A stretch of DNA of 64,000 bases from Pelosinus sp. UFO1. Lineage in GTDB: Bacteria; Bacillota; Negativicutes; DSM-13327. Within the stretch, counting starts at the first letter, position 1; each line of letters opens with the position of its first letter. Below, one piece after another: positions 6,082-14,658 of this stretch. The stretch lies in assembly GCF_000725345.1 (NCBI RefSeq), contig NZ_CP008852.1:372001-436000 (forward strand). Reading direction: 5' to 3'. The notes beneath the pieces are model-generated. The model saw only the letters and a program-made list of their open reading frames with translations. It did no database searches and had not been told where the DNA came from. The position numbers and the translations under genes are program-made.

Positions 6082-6207
6082 ATGATTTTACGAATGACAG
6101 AGGGATTACAGAAAATGGTGTGGAATACAAATAAAGTTAATTATCTGATTATTTAGATGATTGCTGTACATCGTTATATGACAAATACCTTAACTGGAGG
6201 GGCTATA

Positions 6208-8877
6208 TTGTTTAATGACAAAAGTAATGATCTAAATCATAAGTTAAATAGAAAAGATAAGGTGTATTTAGAATTAAGGAATCTCACCCAGACAGTTAAT
6301 TTTAATGAAGCGAAATCGTTAGAGAAAATAGGCTTTGAAACAAATCATATAGCGAAACAGTTAACTATTACAAGGAATAATGTTAGTACAGCATTAAATA
6401 CTCTTTTGTCTGAGGGGAAAGTCATTAAGATTTTAGGCAAACCTGTTCGTTACCTTGATAGAATCTGTCTAGAATCGAATACAAATATAATGATAAAAAA
6501 TCCAATCATTAATAGCACTGATGAGTTTAAGAAGCTGATACGAAAAGTGCCCTTGTTTTCCAAGCTAGAAGAAGAAACTTTTTCTTGTAATAAGAATGAA
6601 ATACATAATCTAATTGAAAATCATACAAAACCGAAGAGTGATATTTTTGAAAATATAGTTGGTGCTGGTGATGACTTAAAAGTACAGGTAAAGCAGGCGC
6701 GGGCCGCCATACTATATCCGCCCAATGGTCTACATACCTTGCTAATAGGCCCTACGGGAATTGGGAAAACTACGTTTGCTGAAATTATGTATCGGTACGC
6801 TATAGAGATAGGAAGATTGCAGACTAACGCTCCTTATGTGATATTTAATTGCGCTGATTATGCTGAAAATTTACAGCTTTTAGTATCACATCTTTTTGGC
6901 AATGCAAAAGGTGCTTTTACGGGTGCTGATACAGAAAAGAAAGGATTAGTTGATCAAGCAAACGGCGGAATACTTTTTCTCGATGAAGTACATCGCTTAC
7001 CACCTGAAGGGCAGGAAATGCTATTTTCACTAATGGATCGAGGCAGCTATCGCCGGTTAGGAGAATCTGAAAATACACGAAAGGCAAATATACTTATTAT
7101 TGCTGCGACGACAGAAGATCCAAAGGAAGCTATCCTTGGTACCCTTTTGCGAAGAATCCCGGTCATTATTATGTTTCCTAGTTTAGCTGAACGCTCATTG
7201 AAAGGGAGAATGACCCTTATTTGTCAGTTCTTTAGGGAAGAGTCCGTTAAAGTAAAGATACCGGTAACCGTATCAAAAGAAGTATTAAAAATACTGCTGA
7301 TTTACAAATGTCCAGGGAATATAGGCCAATTAAAAAATGATATTCAGCTTATGTGTGCCAATGCATTTGTAGAATATGTCACGGAGCAACATAATTACGT
7401 ACATGTAAAATTATCTCAGCTTTCTCCAAGATTAAAGGAAGGTTTTTTTACAATTGATAATAAAAGACAGGAGATAGCCAAAGTCTTTAATCTAAATGAT
7501 TTTGAATCCATCACTTTTAATGGAGTCAATGAAGATTTAAATGAAAATCTAAATAATGTACTTCTTTATGATGAATATAAAACAGAAGAAGATTTTTATG
7601 ATTTAATTCTAGAAAGTGCCCAAAAGTTTTTAGAAAAAGGTCTTTCAATCAGCGAGATTAGAGAAAGGATAAATAAACAAATCCAAAATCGATTTCAGGA
7701 TTCTTTTGCTGCCGGAAAGGACAAAAGTTTACTGTTAGAGAAAGAAATTCTCTCTAAAATTGTAACTCCAGAAATCGTAAAGATTATTGAAGAATCCTTG
7801 GCTGAATCAGTAGACTTAATAGGATTGTCTTTTGACACTAAGGTGATATATAGTCTTGCTTTACACATGGAAACTTTAATTGAACGGTTACGTTTAGGGC
7901 AGATTTCCATACATCCCAATATTAAAAAAATTTACCAAGAACATCAACAGGAATATGCCGTTGCAGAAAAGATAAAGAATAAGCTGGAAGAAAAATTGTT
8001 CCTGACTATTCCTGATGATGAAGTAGCCTTTACTGCCATGTTGTTATACTCCTTAAATATAAAGAAAAGTGATGAAAATATTGAGGTATTAGTTATCACT
8101 CATGGCTATGCTACAGCTACGAATATGGTTCAAGTTGCTCAAACTCTCTTAGGTTATGAGTGTATTCACGCCTTAGACATGCCTTTAGAAGAAAAGGTAG
8201 AAGTGATATTGGAAAAGGCAATTGAAATGGTCAAAAAAATCAATAAGGGGCGTGGTGTGCTATTATTAGTTGATATGGGATCCCTTACCACATTTTCCGA
8301 AATAATTTCTGAAAGAACTGGTATTCCTACTAGAACAGTTAAGATGGTTAGTACGCCTATGGTCATCGAGGCAGCTAGAAAGGCTATGATGCCTACGATA
8401 AGTCTTGATCAGTTAGTTGAAAGTGTAAACGGGATGAGTCCTTTAATTGCTGGAAGAATTAAAGTCGATAACTCACCAGTTGAAATTGGCTATTCATCTA
8501 TCATCTACCAAGAACGGGCAATTGCCATGTTAGAGGAAATTCTCACCTTTTTAAATGTGAAAAAGGCATCAAAATTGCTATGCGAAGTGCTAGAGCAAAT
8601 TTTACATGCCTGTGATGGTATGATAGATGAAAGTATTAAAATTAAGTTTTTATTTCATTGTTCCTGCATGATTGAAAGAATCATACGAAATGAACCCTTG
8701 CCATATAATAATTTCTTGCAGGTACAAGAAACCAAGGCGTCTTTGTTTAGGCTGATTAAATCGAAGTTCATCTTAATTGAGGAAGTGTTTGGAATCAATA
8801 TTCCTAATACGGAGTTAGCCTATATTGTTGAAATGATCGATACTCATATTAATATAATATCCATAATGGAAAATTAA
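6208..8877 (+). CDS. LevR-type sigma-54-dependent PTS activator
   Basis: About 889 residues. Order: N-terminal winged HTH (about 20-85), AAA+ sigma-54 activator domain, PRD, EIIA-Man-like domain, EIIB-like region, second PRD. The AAA+ domain shows Walker A GPTGIGKT near residue 180 and the sigma-54 contact motif GAFTGA near 234. PRD1 carries LALHMETLIERLRLGQ, the EIIA-like part ITHGYATATNM near 630, and PRD2 FHCSCMIERIIR near the C-terminus. LevR proteins are phosphorylated by PTS proteins and activate mannose-family PTS operons. I prefer the TTG at 6208 because CTGGAGGGG lies 5 bp upstream; the in-frame ATG at 6157 has no site. It is followed by matching activator sites, a -24/-12 promoter and the PTS genes. 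Confidence 0.92.
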   Translation: MFNDKSNDLNHKLNRKDKVYLELRNLTQTVNFNEAKSLEKIGFETNHIAKQLTITRNNVSTALNTLLSEGKVIKILGKPVRYLDRICLESNTNIMIKNPIINSTDEFKKLIRKVPLFSKLEEETFSCNKNEIHNLIENHTKPKSDIFENIVGAGDDLKVQVKQARAAILYPPNGLHTLLIGPTGIGKTTFAEIMYRYAIEIGRLQTNAPYVIFNCADYAENLQLLVSHLFGNAKGAFTGADTEKKGLVDQANGGILFLDEVHRLPPEGQEMLFSLMDRGSYRRLGESENTRKANILIIAATTEDPKEAILGTLLRRIPVIIMFPSLAERSLKGRMTLICQFFREESVKVKIPVTVSKEVLKILLIYKCPGNIGQLKNDIQLMCANAFVEYVTEQHNYVHVKLSQLSPRLKEGFFTIDNKRQEIAKVFNLNDFESITFNGVNEDLNENLNNVLLYDEYKTEEDFYDLILESAQKFLEKGLSISEIRERINKQIQNRFQDSFAAGKDKSLLLEKEILSKIVTPEIVKIIEESLAESVDLIGLSFDTKVIYSLALHMETLIERLRLGQISIHPNIKKIYQEHQQEYAVAEKIKNKLEEKLFLTIPDDEVAFTAMLLYSLNIKKSDENIEVLVITHGYATATNMVQVAQTLLGYECIHALDMPLEEKVEVILEKAIEMVKKINKGRGVLLLVDMGSLTTFSEIISERTGIPTRTVKMVSTPMVIEAARKAMMPTISLDQLVESVNGMSPLIAGRIKVDNSPVEIGYSSIIYQERAIAMLEEILTFLNVKKASKLLCEVLEQILHACDGMIDESIKIKFLFHCSCMIERIIRNEPLPYNNFLQVQETKASLFRLIKSKFILIEEVFGINIPNTELAYIVEMIDTHINIISIMEN

Positions 8878-8914
8878 AAGGAGTCCAAGAGGGGTATCAC
8901 TCTTGGACTCCTTT
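8877..8914 (+). terminator. Terminator of the levR-like gene
   Basis: Perfect 15-bp arms AAAGGAGTCCAAGAG and CTCTTGGACTCCTTT with an 8-nt loop, beginning in the stop codon and leading directly into repeat A copy 1. Confidence 0.85.
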
Positions 8915-9015
8915 CTTTACGGAATCAGAAAGTATAACACTTTCTTGATTCCAAGTAAGAACGACTAAGGCTCTGCCTGCGTCCGAGGACTTGGCACAAG
9001 CCAAGTCTTTTCTTA
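8915..9015 (+). repeat. Intergenic repeat family A, copy 1
   Basis: About 100 bp, nearly identical to 45307-45407 and 50963-51063. It contains a first hairpin (GGAATCAGAAAGT with ACTTTCTTGATTCC), a spacer with TAAGAACGACTAAGG, and a second hairpin (GACTTGGC-ACAA-GCCAAGTC) followed by a T-rich tail. It directly follows a gene terminator, as the other close copies do. No coding potential is seen. Confidence 0.85.
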
Positions 9016-9078
9016 ATGTGTCTCAAATGTTGAGACACATATAAAGAAAAATGACTGAGACACATTTTAAGACACATA
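9016..9078. promoter_or_regulatory. Upstream activating sites for the LevR-type activator
   Basis: A perfect 11-bp inverted repeat, ATGTGTCTCAA-ATG-TTGAGACACAT (9016-9040), is followed by half-sites TGAGACACAT (9056-9065) and AAGACACATA (9069-9078). The array lies 110-175 bp before the -24/-12 promoter, the normal distance for a sigma-54 enhancer. Binding by the upstream activator is inferred. Confidence 0.75.
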
Positions 9079-9189
9079 ATTACGAAGGATTCATGTTGGT
9101 ATTGAAAATTAATTTATATAGGAGAAGTCAGTCACAGCGGATAGATGTTGGTTGCAATGAACTATTTTACAGGTAGTGAGACACTTTGT

Positions 9190-9204
9190 TGGCATGGCAG
9201 TTGC
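9190..9204 (+). promoter_or_regulatory. Sigma-54 (-24/-12) promoter of the mannose-family PTS operon
   Basis: TGGCAT, 5 bp, then TTGC matches the sigma-54 consensus with exact GG-GC spacing. It lies 34 bp before the EIIA start codon and downstream of the activator repeats. Confidence 0.8.
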
Positions 9205-9237
9205 AATATTATTTATACAAAAGAAAGGAGTGTTGTA

Positions 9238-9660
9238 ATGATTGGGATTTTGCTAGTAACCCATGAAGATTTCGGCGAAGCAGCTTTGAGAACTGCGGAA
9301 CTAATTTTGGGAAAACAAGAAGAGGCTTTCGCATTAGGTTGCCATCGTGGGGATAGTATTGAAGAGTTTTGTGAGAATGTAAAAGCATCTATAGAAAAAT
9401 TAGATACAGGAAAGGGCGTTTTGGTGTTTGCAGATTTGTATGGCGCAAGCCCTTATAATATTGCGGCCAAAGCGAGCAACACAAGTAACAGTAAATTTAG
9501 ATGCATTACTGGTTTTAGTTTGCCAATGGTGATAGAAGCTTTTAGCATGAGAGAAACCTGTGAATTAGAGGAGTTAACGGATAAATGCATGGAGACGGGG
9601 CCTTTGGGGATAAAAGAACTTTTCAAAGAAATAGAAATATTTGATGCGAAAAATAAGTAG
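9238..9660 (+). CDS. PTS mannose-family EIIA component
   Basis: A 140-residue cytoplasmic phosphocarrier. The phosphorylated histidine is His9 in ILLVTHEDFG. A DLYGASPYNIAAK loop (around residue 70) is typical of EIIA-Man folds. It takes phosphate from HPr and passes it to the EIIB encoded next. The start ATG at 9238 has AAAGGAG 7 bp upstream; an in-frame ATG at 9145 would lie before the sigma-54 promoter and is not credible. First gene of the PTS operon; EIIA and EIIB are separate chains here, unlike E. coli ManX. Confidence 0.92.
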   Translation: MIGILLVTHEDFGEAALRTAELILGKQEEAFALGCHRGDSIEEFCENVKASIEKLDTGKGVLVFADLYGASPYNIAAKASNTSNSKFRCITGFSLPMVIEAFSMRETCELEELTDKCMETGPLGIKELFKEIEIFDAKNK

Positions 9661-9676
9661 GGGTGAGATAAATTTT

Positions 9677-10150
9677 ATGTTAAACATTGTTCTTACTAGG
9701 ATCGATGATCGATTGATACATGGGCAAGTGATTACAGCCTGGTCAAAAATTACAAAAGCAAACCGCATTATTGTTGTTGATGATGAAGTGGCAGAAGATT
9801 CTTTTATGGTAAAAGTTTTAAAAATGGCAGCACCTTCCTCTATAAAAGTAGAAATCTTTACGATTGCTGATGCTGCAGTGGCTTTAGGAGGAGAAGATAT
9901 AGGCGAAAAAGTGATTATTTTAGTTAAGACACCTAAGACGGTACTTGGCCTTGTAAAGGCTGGGGTTAGTATAAAAGAACTAAATCTTGGTGGTATGGGA
10001 GCAACACAAGGAAGAAAGCAACTTTATAGAAATATTTCAATTTCAACGGAAGAGAAAGAAATATTTAAAGAACTTCTAACTCTTGGAGTAAATGTTTTTG
10101 TACAAATTGTTCCCGATGCAACTAAAATGCCTATGGCAACATTAATTTAG
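9677..10150 (+). CDS. PTS mannose-family EIIB component
   Basis: A 157-residue EIIB with the active-site His15 in RIDDRLIHGQV, the hallmark of mannose/fructose/sorbose-family EIIB (other PTS families use Cys). A conserved LNLGGMGA segment lies near residue 110. It phosphorylates the incoming sugar held by IIC-IID. ATG at 9677 follows GGGGTGAG 10 bp upstream. A 214-bp non-coding gap separates it from EIIC, which is unusual for this operon type. Confidence 0.92.
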   Translation: MLNIVLTRIDDRLIHGQVITAWSKITKANRIIVVDDEVAEDSFMVKVLKMAAPSSIKVEIFTIADAAVALGGEDIGEKVIILVKTPKTVLGLVKAGVSIKELNLGGMGATQGRKQLYRNISISTEEKEIFKELLTLGVNVFVQIVPDATKMPMATLI

Positions 10151-10364
10151 AAATGACAAGTTTCATGAGAGGATGGCAATAATCTCATGTTTCCCAGGTT
10201 ATCCTCAATGGATGTTCATTTTATGGGTGGATAAAATTGTTCTTCAATTAGGTACTTTTATGAATTACATATACACCGCCAAGGTCCACTGTTAGTAGAT
10301 TGATTTCCAATGAATATGGGGAAGATGGGCTTTATAAATAAAGAATAAAAGGGAGGACAAGAGT

Positions 10365-11126
10365 ATGCATATATCTTTTTTTCAGGCGGCGTTAATTGGT
10401 GCATTTTATTATCTTTCATGGAGTCCTTGGTTTACGTATGTTGGTTTTTTCACTTTTAATAGACCATTAGTAGCTGGATTTATTACTGGTATCATATTAG
10501 GGCAACCCTTAGAGGGAGCATTAATCGGCGCAGGAATTAATGTGATTTATTTAGGATTTATATCGGCTGGGGGAGCTCAAATGGGCGATCCTTCCTTCGC
10601 AGGATATGTTGGTACGGCCCTTGCTTTAGTATCACATTTAGATGTAACCACTGCCATGGCAATATCGGTACCCTTAGGAACCATCGCTACTGTTTTATGG
10701 ATTGCGAAAATGACAGTTAACTCCTTCTTTGTTCATTGGGCTGATAAAGAAGTTGAAAAAGGCAATTTACGGAGATTGGCTTTTATCAACGTAGTGCCTC
10801 CTCAGATATTACTTTTTTTAGTCAGTTTTATTCCTGCGACATTGGTAGTGTATTATGGGCCAGATGCAGTATCTGGAATGCTAAGTGTTATGAGTCCGAG
10901 TGTGCTGCATGTGTTTACTGTAATTGGTGCTATGTTGCCAGCATTAGGCATTGCCATGAATTTAAAGTTAATTGGCAATACGTTTACAATGCCATTTTTC
11001 GTATTAGGTGTTATTTTATCAGTATATTTCAAGCAAGATATTTTGATTATCGCTATCATGGGCATTGTATTAGCATTAACAGTAACGTCGCTCAAAGCAT
11101 CTAGTGGAAAGGATGTCAATGCTTAA
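10365..11126 (+). CDS. PTS mannose/sorbose-family EIIC permease
   Basis: A 253-residue polytopic membrane protein, the substrate channel of the PTS. Family-typical stretches are FNRPLVAGFITGIILGQP near residue 28 and INVIYLGFISAGGAQMGDP near 65-80. AGGGAGGAC precedes the ATG. It works with IID, encoded 26 bp downstream. The sugar cannot be predicted from IIC alone. Confidence 0.92.
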   Translation: MHISFFQAALIGAFYYLSWSPWFTYVGFFTFNRPLVAGFITGIILGQPLEGALIGAGINVIYLGFISAGGAQMGDPSFAGYVGTALALVSHLDVTTAMAISVPLGTIATVLWIAKMTVNSFFVHWADKEVEKGNLRRLAFINVVPPQILLFLVSFIPATLVVYYGPDAVSGMLSVMSPSVLHVFTVIGAMLPALGIAMNLKLIGNTFTMPFFVLGVILSVYFKQDILIIAIMGIVLALTVTSLKASSGKDVNA

Positions 11127-11152
11127 ATAAAATTGAAGGAGGGAATTAAAGA

Positions 11153-11968
11153 ATGGAAGTTACAAAGACGTTAACGAAGAATGATGTACTTAAATCTTGG
11201 TTTAGGTGGTATATGTTTGCTCAATCCAACTATAATTATGAGAGAATGCAAGCTACAGCCTTTGCACATTCCATGTTACCAGTTATAGAAAAACTGTATC
11301 CTGATAAAGAGGATGCCAAGGCTGCAGTTCAGAGGCATTTATCTTTTTTTAACACGGAACCAGTATGTGGTGCCGTTATTCATGGGATTACTATAGCGAT
11401 GGAAGAAGAAAAAGCAAATGGTAAACCGATTACTGATGGAGCTTTTAATGGTATTAAAACAGGATTAATGGGCCCATTAGCAGGTATTGGAGATACATTA
11501 ACCCAAGGAATTATTACCCCAATTATGCTTGCAATTTGTATCGGGATTACCAATAATCAAAACCTTGCGGGGCCCATCATATTTTTAATCGCTCAATTCA
11601 CAATTATGACTACGATCCAGTTAACAATGTGGATGAATGGTTATACCTATGGAAAGAAAGCGGTAGAGCAAATTCTTGAAGGCGGTACAATTAATAAGGT
11701 TATCGAAGGAGCATCCATTCTTGGAACTCTTGTTATGGGCGGACTCGTGGGACGATTTATTCCGCTACAAACCTTAATAAGTTTTGATGTGGGGCAAGTG
11801 AAGTTTAATTTGCAAACAGACTTACTTGATAAACTTATGCCAGGATTAATCCCGCTTGCATTAACTTTAATTGTACTTTCTATGGTTAAAAAAGGTGTAT
11901 CCCCGATAAAATTAATGGGTGTTCTGATAGCCTTAGGTGCGATTACAGGAATTTTAGGTATCTTTTAA
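11153..11968 (+). CDS. PTS mannose-family EIID component
   Basis: A 271-residue membrane protein with the family N-terminus (SWFRWYMFAQSNYNYERMQA), a cytoplasmic-side helical part with HLSFFNTEP, and GLMGPLAGIGDTLTQGIITP around residues 103-122. EIID is found only in mannose-family PTS and completes the IIC-IID translocator. The protein ends in hydrophobic segments and a short IFGIF-like tail. Confidence 0.93.
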   Translation: MEVTKTLTKNDVLKSWFRWYMFAQSNYNYERMQATAFAHSMLPVIEKLYPDKEDAKAAVQRHLSFFNTEPVCGAVIHGITIAMEEEKANGKPITDGAFNGIKTGLMGPLAGIGDTLTQGIITPIMLAICIGITNNQNLAGPIIFLIAQFTIMTTIQLTMWMNGYTYGKKAVEQILEGGTINKVIEGASILGTLVMGGLVGRFIPLQTLISFDVGQVKFNLQTDLLDKLMPGLIPLALTLIVLSMVKKGVSPIKLMGVLIALGAITGILGIF

Positions 11969-12006
11969 TAGGAAAGTATCCTCGATTTCGTATTGATAAA
12001 AGTTTG

Positions 12007-12050
12007 ATTGCCCAGAAGTGAAGTAACTTAGTTACTCGTTTCTGGGCAAT
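12007..12050. terminator. Inverted repeat after EIID
   Basis: ATTGCCCAGAA pairs with TTCTGGGCAAT, and an inner AGTAAC-TTA-GTTACT adds to the stem. There is no strong T-run, so it may attenuate or protect mRNA between the PTS genes and the dehydrogenase instead of terminating. Confidence 0.5.
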
Positions 12051-12116
12051 ACAATGAATTGACTAAGAATATTTACTTTAGGGTAAAGATTGAAATCTTA
12101 TGAGGGAGTGGTAAGT

Positions 12117-13496
12117 ATGAATGTAACAATAAATAATGTTGCTATGTTAGATATAAAAGATTTTCTAGGTGATGAAATAAAATGCGAATGCAAAAAACTT
12201 CATCATGTAGGTATTGATCGTATCATAATAGAAAAGGATGCTATTTCTAAACTACCTGAAATGTTAAGAGATTTTCAATTTAAAAAGGCATTAGTGGTTG
12301 CAGACCTTCACACCTATGAAGTAGCTGGCAAAGTTGTAGAATCAGTCTTAGGGGAAGAAAAATTTTCATACAAAACATTTATATTTCAAGAGCTAGAAGA
12401 GTTAGTCCCTGATGAAGCGGCAGTAGGCAAACTATTAATTCAAGTAGAAAAAGATATTGATGTAATTGTTACCATCGGTACAGGTACACTCAATGATTTA
12501 GCTAAGTTTGTTAGTCATAAAGTTGGTATTCCAACTATTATTGTAGCGACGGCTCCCTCCATGGACGGCTTTGCCTCTACAGGTGCGGCCTTAATTGTCG
12601 ATAATCTTAAAACCTCTTTTGAATGTGTATGTCCCAAAGGAATCATAGGAGATATTACTATATTAAAACAAGCACCGATGAATATGATCATAGCTGGTTT
12701 TGGTGATATCGTGGGAAAATATTCGGCTTTGACAGATTGGAAATTAGGCAAAGTTATTAATGATGAATATTACTGCGATGTAGTTGTAAAAATGGTTACT
12801 GACTCCATGGCAAAATGTATAAATAACATCGAGGGCATTAAAACAAGAGAAGAGATTGCTATTAAAAACTTGATGGAAGCCTTGGTAGTAACAGGGATTG
12901 CTATGAGTTTTGTCGGCAATTCAAGACCAGCATCAGGCTCAGAACATCATTTAGCACATTATTGGGAAATGATGTTTTTATTTGAACATAAAAAGGCAGT
13001 ACTCCATGGTACAAAGGTAGGTATTGGAACCATTATTACAGCCAAACTTAGTGAACTGGTAGCCCAATCAAATATTAACTTTGCAGAAGCTATTGCGAAA
13101 GCCAATTCATTTGATCAAAGCCAATGGCAAGAAAATGTTATGAGGCTCTACCAGAAGGCTGCTGCGGAAATCATTCATATCAATGAAAAAGAGGAGAGAA
13201 ACTCCATAAGTAAAAGATTAGCAAGAATCAATCGCATTCAAGAAAATATCGATGAGATTATCGATGTTTTTAAAAGTGTACCTTCCGCCAAAGAAATTAA
13301 ATCAATTCTTAAACATGCTGGTGGGCCAATTCACCCAAGGGAAGTTGGAATTGATGAGCACCATGTAGTCAATGGCATTCTTATGGCTAAAGAAGTGCGG
13401 ACAAGGTATACAATCCTTAACTTCTTATCGGATCTTGATCTGTTAGAGAAGTTTGCTTATGAGGTGAGTGAGGATTTAAAGAAGGAAGAGGCATAG
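12117..13496 (+). CDS. sn-glycerol-1-phosphate dehydrogenase-like (AraM/EgsA family) enzyme
   Basis: 459 residues, longer than the roughly 390-430 usual for AraM/EgsA. NAD(P)-binding and substrate segment TIGTGTLNDLAKFV is near residue 119, followed by TAPSMDGFAS. Metal-binding histidines lie in SGSEHHLAHYWE (about 272-284) and VLHGTKVG (about 295-302). The family reduces dihydroxyacetone phosphate to sn-glycerol-1-phosphate or acts on related polyol phosphates. Placed directly behind a PTS, it may oxidise the imported phosphorylated polyol; that is inference. ATG at 12117 has GAGGGAG 8 bp upstream; the in-frame start at 12090 has no site. Confidence 0.8.
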   Translation: MNVTINNVAMLDIKDFLGDEIKCECKKLHHVGIDRIIIEKDAISKLPEMLRDFQFKKALVVADLHTYEVAGKVVESVLGEEKFSYKTFIFQELEELVPDEAAVGKLLIQVEKDIDVIVTIGTGTLNDLAKFVSHKVGIPTIIVATAPSMDGFASTGAALIVDNLKTSFECVCPKGIIGDITILKQAPMNMIIAGFGDIVGKYSALTDWKLGKVINDEYYCDVVVKMVTDSMAKCINNIEGIKTREEIAIKNLMEALVVTGIAMSFVGNSRPASGSEHHLAHYWEMMFLFEHKKAVLHGTKVGIGTIITAKLSELVAQSNINFAEAIAKANSFDQSQWQENVMRLYQKAAAEIIHINEKEERNSISKRLARINRIQENIDEIIDVFKSVPSAKEIKSILKHAGGPIHPREVGIDEHHVVNGILMAKEVRTRYTILNFLSDLDLLEKFAYEVSEDLKKEEA

Positions 13497-13610
13497 CCTT
13501 AACTACAAATTAGATAGGTCTTCTACTTGTAACATGCAGGTATTTTAAATAAAATGTTGAACTCATCAGAAGATAGTATTGGTATAAATAACTTAGAAAA
13601 TGAGTGAAAT

Positions 13611-14465
13611 ATGAATAAAAATGATGTGCTTCAATATTTAAAAAATAATTATGACCAATTAACTGGCAGTCAAAAAATAATAGGGAAATATGTATTAGAT
13701 AACTATAGAGAAGTGGCTTTTCTATCTGCCATAGAATTAGGAGAAAAAGTAGGGGTAAGTGATGCCACGATTATAAGATTTGCCAAATCGATTGGTTTTA
13801 CTGGTTTTGCAGAGTTTAGAAGTAACATTAGAGATGGGATAAAAAATTTCGATTTACCTCATAAACGGCTTTCTAAGAATTTAGAGATTATTAATGATAA
13901 AAATAATCTTACTATGCAAGTTGGTAAAAAGGATTTAAAAAATCTTGAAGAATTTTTATTACATTTTGATGTTGAAAAAATAAAACAAGCAACTGACGCT
14001 ATATGTAGGGCGGATACAATATATTTGGTAGGGATAGGATCTTCTGGTGTTCTGGTAGACTTTTTAGCATTGCATTTTAGAAGAATGGGATTTAAGGTTA
14101 TGGCAGTTAGTGAAGGCGGAGTTGTGAATGTTGAAAAAATAATGTCCATTGCCGCAAAAGATTTATTAATTGCTTGTAGTTTTCCAAGGTATTCAAAGCC
14201 TACTTATCATGCTATAAATTTTGCAAAAAAAAGAGGGGCTAAAGTGATTACTATTACGGATAGTAACTTTTCAACTGTTAGTATTAATAGTGATATTGTG
14301 TTTTCCTTACCAATCGAGAATGCAACTTTTTTTAACTCATACATAGTCCCCATGGAATTATGTAATATGTTGATAATCAGCATATTAGAGAATGATAAGG
14401 AACGGATATATTCTAGTTTAGAAGAAAACATACAGAGTTTAGAAATTTTTGATTTACGGTTATGA
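13611..14465 (+). CDS. RpiR/MurR family regulator (HTH-SIS)
   Basis: 284 residues. An N-terminal HTH_6 domain (about 1-77, with GEKVGVSDATIIRFAKSIGF) is followed by a SIS sugar-phosphate-binding domain (about 125-260, with YLVGIGSSGVLVDFLALHF and LLIACSFPRYSKPT). RpiR proteins sense phosphosugars. Placed after the PTS and dehydrogenase genes, it may respond to the intermediate they make. This gives the locus a second regulator beside the LevR-type activator. A terminator follows at once. Confidence 0.88.
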   Translation: MNKNDVLQYLKNNYDQLTGSQKIIGKYVLDNYREVAFLSAIELGEKVGVSDATIIRFAKSIGFTGFAEFRSNIRDGIKNFDLPHKRLSKNLEIINDKNNLTMQVGKKDLKNLEEFLLHFDVEKIKQATDAICRADTIYLVGIGSSGVLVDFLALHFRRMGFKVMAVSEGGVVNVEKIMSIAAKDLLIACSFPRYSKPTYHAINFAKKRGAKVITITDSNFSTVSINSDIVFSLPIENATFFNSYIVPMELCNMLIISILENDKERIYSSLEENIQSLEIFDLRL

Positions 14466-14471
14466 TTTAAT

Positions 14472-14504
14472 AACTCATCTTTTAAAAAGAGATGAGTTTT
14501 TTTT
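14472..14504 (+). terminator. Terminator of the rpiR-like gene
   Basis: AACTCATCT pairs with AGATGAGTT and is followed by a long T-run. Confidence 0.85.
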
Positions 14505-14623: not shown

Positions 14624-14658
14624 GGCGCCTGAGTTTATTACTCGGGATGCCTTTTTTT
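14624..14658 (+). promoter_or_regulatory. Leader hairpin with T-run before yjiH (possible attenuator)
   Basis: GGCGCCTGAG and CTCGGGATGCC form an imperfect stem with a 7-nt loop, followed by seven T residues, about 100 bp before the yjiH-like start. The preceding gene already has its own terminator, so this looks like an intrinsic terminator within the leader of the next operon. No known riboswitch class could be assigned. Confidence 0.5.

Follow-up and report, generated by a model that had tools for sequence, protein, structure and literature searches.

The window analyzed here, a 64,000-nucleotide stretch of the Pelosinus sp. UFO1 genome (contig NZ_CP008852.1, positions 372,001 to 436,000), contains a mannose-family phosphotransferase system (PTS) directly followed by a gene for an AraM-type dehydrogenase. 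Judged from the sequence, these genes probably form an inducible operon for the uptake of a sugar alcohol and its first oxidation by the AraM-type enzyme. A LevR-type activator would bind a cluster of repeats and open a -24/-12 promoter, the PTS would import and phosphorylate a polyol, and AraM, made from a read-through transcript, would oxidize this polyol phosphate. The resulting ketose phosphate would go into central metabolism. The enzyme would act with a bound metal and with a nicotinamide as cofactor, a chemistry that is established for the family, whereas the substrate is predicted. We hold the substrate class, a polyol phosphate, with fair confidence and any individual substrate with little.

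Gene organization of the proposed operon

The initial annotation had listed a LevR activator, enhancer repeats, a -24/-12 promoter and the IIA, IIB, IIC and IID genes in this order, with an AraM/EgsA-type dehydrogenase as the next gene. Open reading frames (ORFs), domain matches and motif scans confirm the first part, and the Fe-ADH_2 domain encoded at 12117-13496 confirms the second. The features are:

6208..8877, plus strand: LevR/DagR-type sigma-54 activator (Sigma54_activat 9e-39, two PRD, EIIA-man)
8876..8915, no strand assigned: hairpin 3' of the activator gene (-26.4 kcal/mol, z -6.1)
9016..9077, plus strand: four activator-site-like repeats TGAGACACAT, the first inverted (motif scan)
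9177..9186, plus strand: fifth TGAGACACAT repeat, with one mismatch, abutting the -24 element (motif scan)
9190..9205, plus strand: predicted -24/-12 sigma-54 promoter TGGCATGGCAGTTGCA, sole exact match in 64 kb
9238..9660, plus strand: PTS IIA, mannose family (EIIA-man 8.5e-25)
9677..10150, plus strand: PTS IIB (PTSIIB_sorb 6.5e-50)
10365..11126, plus strand: PTS IIC (EII-Sor 2.1e-65)
11153..11968, plus strand: PTS IID (EIID-AGA 8.6e-93)
12004..12055, plus strand: strong hairpin between IID and AraM, without a T-run (-26.1 kcal/mol, z -6.6)
12117..13496, plus strand: AraM-type (Fe-ADH_2) dehydrogenase of 459 aa, proposed polyol-phosphate dehydrogenase (PF13685 5.2e-33)
13611..14465, plus strand: RpiR/SIS regulator, a neighbour outside the proposed operon

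The product of 6208-8877, for which an alternative upstream start at 6157 is possible, contains PRD and EIIA-man domains beside a sigma-54 AAA+ domain, as LevR and DagR do, and scores 568 bits with the DagR equivalog model, below its cut-off of 1400. The mannose-family PTS is complete, with all four components above their gathering scores. With respect to its specificity, the NCBIfam models gave generic matches only, all under their cut-offs. An L-sorbose operon was considered and rejected: PTS relatives at 54% are sorbose-like, but the second gene there encodes a DhnA-type aldolase and not SorD, and an MDR gene is present too. Genes for the SorD and SorE dehydrogenases were not found among the ORFs of the window.

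The PTS and the AraM-type gene form a conserved unit

The initial annotation had suggested looking for the same gene order in other Negativicutes. The IID gene was searched for across 200 genomes of this class. Ten genomes encode an IID with 74-100% identity, the next best match having 47%. In all ten, AraM is the gene directly after IID (for G039 this was taken from coordinates) and the order IIA-IIB-IIC-IID-AraM is retained, showing that PTS and dehydrogenase are one conserved unit. With this unit, import of a polyol coupled to oxidation of its phosphate ester, as originally proposed, appears to be the best reading. The pairing is real, but it had been drawn too narrowly: AraM-type genes also follow galactitol- and glucitol-type PTS genes, and outside the class they adjoin genes for FGGY kinases.

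A wider search in 398 genomes of the phylum detected a related PTS outside the Negativicutes (genome G235, locus L093; IID 72% and IIC 80% identical) without AraM. Its cluster holds an MDR gene in place of AraM, for which the best NCBIfam match is galactitol-1-phosphate 5-dehydrogenase (254 bits, cut-off 550). Unrelated ORFs interrupt the PTS operon of this locus in two places, one separating IIB from IIC and the other IIC from IID.

The AraM proteins were compared in a quick tree of 88 rows, limited to ORFs of 380-520 aa, with SH-aLRT support only and with long branches flagged. The mannose-family PTS label requires two changes on this tree, with eight rows in one group (SH-aLRT 94) and L050 in another subclade; thus, the same PTS seems to have acquired AraM-type enzymes at least twice. 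Neighbours of the L050 enzyme on the tree are L055 and L056, which come with AraD, and L058 and L062, which come with an Rpe-like epimerase and a canonical RpiB. Downstream of AraM in L081 (G017), genes for a HAD phosphatase, a transketolase and a 6-phosphofructokinase are found. Because of the last two genes of L081 and the AraD, Rpe-like and canonical RpiB genes in the subclade of L050, we favour a pentitol that is converted to a pentulose 5-phosphate as the substrate of the mannose-family branch; this is our best guess and a tentative one. A hexitol is also among the possible substrates of the window operon.

The gene after AraM varies. In the ten loci it encodes a HAD-IIA phosphatase five times (one of them split), an RpiR regulator once and neither of the two in four cases. 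In L073 and L009 (P. propionicus, G024) the split HAD-IIA gene 3' of AraM consists of two ORFs of 179 and 107 aa. HAD-IIA members include polyol-phosphate phosphatases, and the five loci would suit a redox valve, in which AraM reduces dihydroxyacetone phosphate (DHAP) to sn-glycerol 1-phosphate (G1P) with surplus NADH, the phosphatase frees glycerol and the PTS merely supplies sugar. However, the HAD-IIA gene is absent from the window operon and four others, the only such HAD of the window genome is encoded elsewhere and is 45% identical, and the L093 cluster carries an MDR polyol dehydrogenase. We therefore regard a redox valve as quite improbable.

The RpiR gene was seen correctly in the initial annotation as following the dehydrogenase gene, but its link to the PTS did not hold up, since it occurs at this place in one of the ten loci, the window alone. 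Its ortholog in P. fermentans JBW45 (69%) precedes genes that, named from their sequences, are transporter-like and M20-like. In the window, RpiR precedes a pair of Gate-domain genes and a gene that, again by its sequence, is M20-like. RpiR as a member of the operon was therefore rejected: it is absent from this position in the relatives, and the JBW45 ortholog is grouped with genes for a transporter and an M20 peptidase. Terminator-like hairpins are located at 14472-14498, after RpiR, and at 14628-14646, before the Gate-domain genes.

Control region and predicted limits of the transcript

The predicted promoter at 9190-9205, ahead of the first structural gene, follows the pattern TGGCAY-N5-TTGCW. 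A site of the -24/-12 type precedes IIA in all ten fetched loci with LevR and IIA on the same strand, the window included; these ten loci represent eight genomes, as each of two pairs is one genome fetched twice. Exact copies of TGAGACACAT are located at 9016-9025 (minus strand), 9031-9040 and 9056-9065 and a copy with one mismatch at 9068-9077, all inside 62 bases. The 64 kb contain seven matches to this motif (3.5 ± 2.0 expected), and five of the seven are located between LevR and IIA. The TGAGACACAT repeats are retained among the Pelosinus relatives, and repeats of the GATACACAT type are present in the more distant loci L051, L052 and L081. A repeat abutting the -24 element, arranged as at 9177-9186, is also found in the promoters of the relatives. 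Within 9177-9205 the activator half-site touches the -24 element, and in L052 and L081 an inverted repeat is located there. Such a half-site could allow repression besides activation.

The initial annotation had named a promoter of its own for the dehydrogenase gene as an observation that would speak against a common operon. In the 148-base gap between IID and AraM, scans of the plus strand gave no sigma-70-like promoter and no site resembling a terminator, so AraM is expected to be transcribed from the PTS promoter by read-through. The gap has only 24-25 bases in L051, L052 and L081. The hairpin within it (12004-12055) was considered as an attenuator or conserved regulator and rejected, since the gap sequence varies among the relatives. 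Copies of its stem do not occur in the rest of the window more often than expected by chance, and an Rfam scan of the 64 kb gave zero matches. The hairpin behind the activator gene (8876-8915) was scored as a terminator-like site on the minus strand, and its stem is able to form on either strand.

The AraM-type enzyme

The window AraM has the Fe-ADH_2 domain and the fold of glycerol-1-phosphate dehydrogenases (G1PDH), and it scores 229.9 bits with the G1PDH equivalog model NF002022, which has a cut-off of 413. Its AlphaFold2 model (pLDDT 95.2) matches AraM of B. subtilis (9h4x) best among solved structures (Z 48.3, rmsd 1.8 over 382 residues, 30% identity), followed by 3ce9, an entry for a glycerol dehydrogenase of C. 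acetobutylicum, and the M. jannaschii G1PDH. Alignment to 9h4x places D150, H277 and H297, which we take to be the metal ligands, and the cofactor glycines; like R270 and K201, these residues do not vary in any of the 78 alignment rows. Residues 318-380 align to 14 residues of 9h4x, leaving about 49 extra residues in the window protein.

Two further long AraM paralogs are encoded in the same genome, which thus has three. Both lie in galactitol-type PTS clusters, of which one also holds AraD and transketolase and the other MDR, DeoC, RpiB, transketolase halves and 6-phosphofructokinase (some of these genes were named by clustering with a scanned member).

Bacterial AraM is known by a database name that points to lipid synthesis, and the B. 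subtilis enzyme is reported, as cited in PMC5059525, to make G1P in vitro, with activity on G1P and DHAP. The window enzyme might accordingly make G1P for archaeal-type lipids, with the PTS next to it by chance. Such a role in lipid synthesis, which the initial annotation had set against its own proposal, would call for the PcrB prenyltransferase of the AraM-PcrB route, and no full-length PcrB was found in the genome: the one match covers 50 residues (model positions 166-215 of 226) at 25 bits, with a family cut-off of 23.9. As the PTS linkage is conserved in addition, we consider a lipid enzyme extremely improbable.

A sister clade linked to glucitol-type PTS and a tetrose-type isomerase

The window AraM falls inside a clade of 21 rows (98% support) together with AraM proteins encoded beside glucitol-type PTS genes (PTS types were assigned by Pfam). 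RpiB proteins encoded near the glucitol-PTS AraMs lack the canonical GSDHAG and R(A/E)HN motifs and have xKSN instead. This version is also present in Listeria and Pasteurella clusters, and LSN is found at this place in L172 and Roseibium; from its gene order we take L172 to be the rhizobial erythritol operon, and on the same basis we assign the clusters of Listeria and Pasteurella to the tetrose type. The canonical and tetrose-type proteins separate with 100% support in an RpiB tree of 50 rows. A genome search, in which the loci of the best 30 matches were read, showed a tetrose-type (EryI-like) RpiB with 54-66% identity in all 11 genomes with a glucitol-clade AraM among the 17 tested. The remaining six, including that of the window, have no RpiB match above 48%.

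These data make the glucitol-PTS-clade AraMs candidate tetritol-phosphate dehydrogenases. Combining the stereochemistry of sn-G1P with oxidation next to the phosphate, we derived by hand from Fischer projections that D-erythritol 4-phosphate would give L-erythrulose 1-phosphate. The latter is, judging by its title, the subject of a 1968 paper by Wawszkiewicz on P. pentosaceum, which is in the reference list of PMC4437456. An EryH counterpart was sought in C. psychrophilum and the candidate was not decisive, as its TIM belongs to the archaeal kind (172.6 bits with the PRK04302 subfamily, cut-off 132). According to PMC4437456, erythritol and adonitol are fermented by P. freudenreichii, which lacks the genes known for this, and one of its loci consists of two araB genes, araM and araL.

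Several glucitol-PTS/AraM clusters contain a gene for a DRL-type oxidoreductase (L077:4364-5656, with PF21135, and by clustering L011:4595-5884, L074, L075 and L080). DRL enzymes produce 2-C-methylerythritol 4-phosphate, so branched tetritols are possible substrates of these clusters.

The window operon itself could be a tetritol operon as well, its AraM turning D-erythritol 4-phosphate into L-erythrulose 1-phosphate as proposed for the glucitol-PTS clade. The well-supported common clade and the regular presence of the tetrose-type RpiB in the sister-clade genomes speak for this. Against it, the window genome has two canonical RpiB proteins and one distant homolog and thus no RpiB of the tetrose type, and G017 and G004, which carry the same operon, lack it too. 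(The distant homolog, of 220 aa, is encoded at L193:6444-7106, 3' of an SDR-like gene.) We therefore consider a tetritol operon unlikely. Since the tetrose-type isomerase is absent, the window AraM probably has a substrate different from that of its sister clade, and in these three genomes the product of the operon should reach central metabolism without this isomerase.

AraM-type genes in other genomes

In the fetched loci, a sample rich in relatives of the window, 87 AraM genes scored above 150 bits; L072 and L073 were left out of this count and of the tree because they duplicate L010 and L009. In 39 of the 87, a PTS gene lies no more than seven genes away in the same orientation; an FGGY kinase gene does so in 17, either of the two in 54 and a HAD-IIA gene in 28. 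If pentose-phosphate enzymes are counted along with PTS and FGGY kinase, the number rises to 60 of the 87. Outside the phylum, plasmid records of rhizobia and their kin show AraM beside genes for an FGGY kinase, a HAD protein and, in most cases, GlpD, and those of Rubrobacter show it with FGGY, RpiB, HAD-IIA and GlpD. The Rubrobacter plasmids L167 and L176 carry a dense polyol cluster that encodes AraM (one or two copies), FGGY kinases (two or three), a tetrose-type RpiB, HAD-IIA, a DHA-kinase-family protein and GlpD. In L053 and L054 (G027 and G009) the AraM-type gene lies beside ribosomal-protein, ABC and truA-like genes (named from sequence), far from a clear polyol operon.

In the window, a probable sugar-alcohol uptake operon has as its metabolic enzyme a relative of the protein that forms the backbone of archaeal membrane lipids; this suggests that many bacterial genes under a lipid-related name really encode sugar-alcohol-phosphate dehydrogenases. 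The stronger statement would be that most bacterial genes named G1P dehydrogenase or AraM have this function and were repeatedly recruited by PTS or FGGY-kinase polyol operons, the glucitol-PTS branch converting D-erythritol 4-phosphate to L-erythrulose 1-phosphate and the window branch another polyol imported by the mannose-family PTS; we rate this somewhat below an even chance.

Several observations weigh against the proposed function. PTS, FGGY and pentose-phosphate neighbours are missing from 27 of the 87 AraM genes, and of the 39 genes scored in the phylum sample (L125-L164) none is near a PTS and 14 are near FGGY; the PTS counts of L053 and L054 may reflect chance neighbours. The genomes with a tetrose-type RpiB are not independent, as five of the 11 belong to one genus; in four fetched loci of this genus the isomerase gene is physically near AraM. 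The metal and substrate motif (SRPASG-EHH, LHG) is common to the window AraM and B. subtilis AraM, and this shared G1P-type catalytic motif would place the carbonyl next to the phosphate, unlike in a pentulose 5-phosphate. Four of the ten operons lack a further recognized enzyme gene, and that of the window is followed only by RpiR; a substrate leading straight to DHAP, namely glycerol, would therefore fit as well.

Glycerol would then be taken up as G1P, and AraM would be a true G1P dehydrogenase yielding DHAP with no further enzyme. Such a one-step entry into glycolysis suits these four operons and agrees with the conserved catalytic motif of the window AraM and with the activity of the B. 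subtilis enzyme (cited in PMC5059525). The equivalog score far under its cut-off (230 against 413 bits), the transketolase gene in L081 and the sister clades, which occur in PTS clusters for polyols alongside enzymes of pentose or tetrose phosphates, argue against it. We know of no PTS for glycerol. Taken together, we consider a glycerol PTS improbable and prefer a polyol operon.

Novelty and implications

LevR-controlled mannose-family PTS operons and the combination of a PTS with a polyol-phosphate dehydrogenase are already known; the new part is a variant, with an AraM-type enzyme in the dehydrogenase position of a mannose-family PTS polyol operon. A literature search confined to openly licensed papers turned up no report of PTS operons that include an AraM-type enzyme; the initial annotation, too, knew of no characterized pathway with this combination. 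The match for Pelosinus together with xylitol concerns, judging by its title, soil fertiliser.

In work on the lipid divide (PMC5059525, PMC7852524), bacterial araM is taken as the gene for archaeal-type G1P. If most araM genes serve sugar-alcohol catabolism, araM would be unreliable as a marker for it. The clusters supply candidate genes for a tetritol-phosphate dehydrogenase and a mannose-family polyol PTS, and the glucitol-PTS branch, if read correctly, would form L-erythrulose 1-phosphate, an intermediate that was named for Propionibacterium in 1968; the genes for it were not found in P. freudenreichii.

Comparison with known systems

B. subtilis AraM, a Ni2+-dependent G1P dehydrogenase (9h4x), resembles the window enzyme in fold, metal ligands and the SRPASG-EHH and LHG motifs. 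A HAD-IIA-type gene, araL, adjoins araM there, as such a gene can do in relatives of the window. The window differs by the extra residues at 318-380, by a PTS instead of an arabinose operon and by a genome without full-length PcrB. The rhizobial erythritol operon (L172: FGGY kinase, GlpD-like protein, TIM barrel, Tpi and RpiB) has the tetrose-type RpiB in common with the sister-clade genomes; in the window, AraM stands in place of the GlpD-like dehydrogenase and a PTS in place of the kinase, and the isomerase is missing from the genome.

LevR- and DagR-controlled mannose-family PTS operons are alike in the activator domains, the upstream activating sequences, the -24/-12 promoter and the order IIA-IIB-IIC-IID, whereas the window has an AraM-type associated enzyme and its activator misses the DagR cut-off (568 of 1400 bits). 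Polyol PTS operons for galactitol, glucitol and arabitol carry an MDR or SDR polyol-phosphate dehydrogenase. The window operon shares with them the combination of a PTS and one dehydrogenase, and the related PTS cluster of L093 has an MDR gene; in the window, this dehydrogenase belongs to the Fe-ADH/AraM superfamily.

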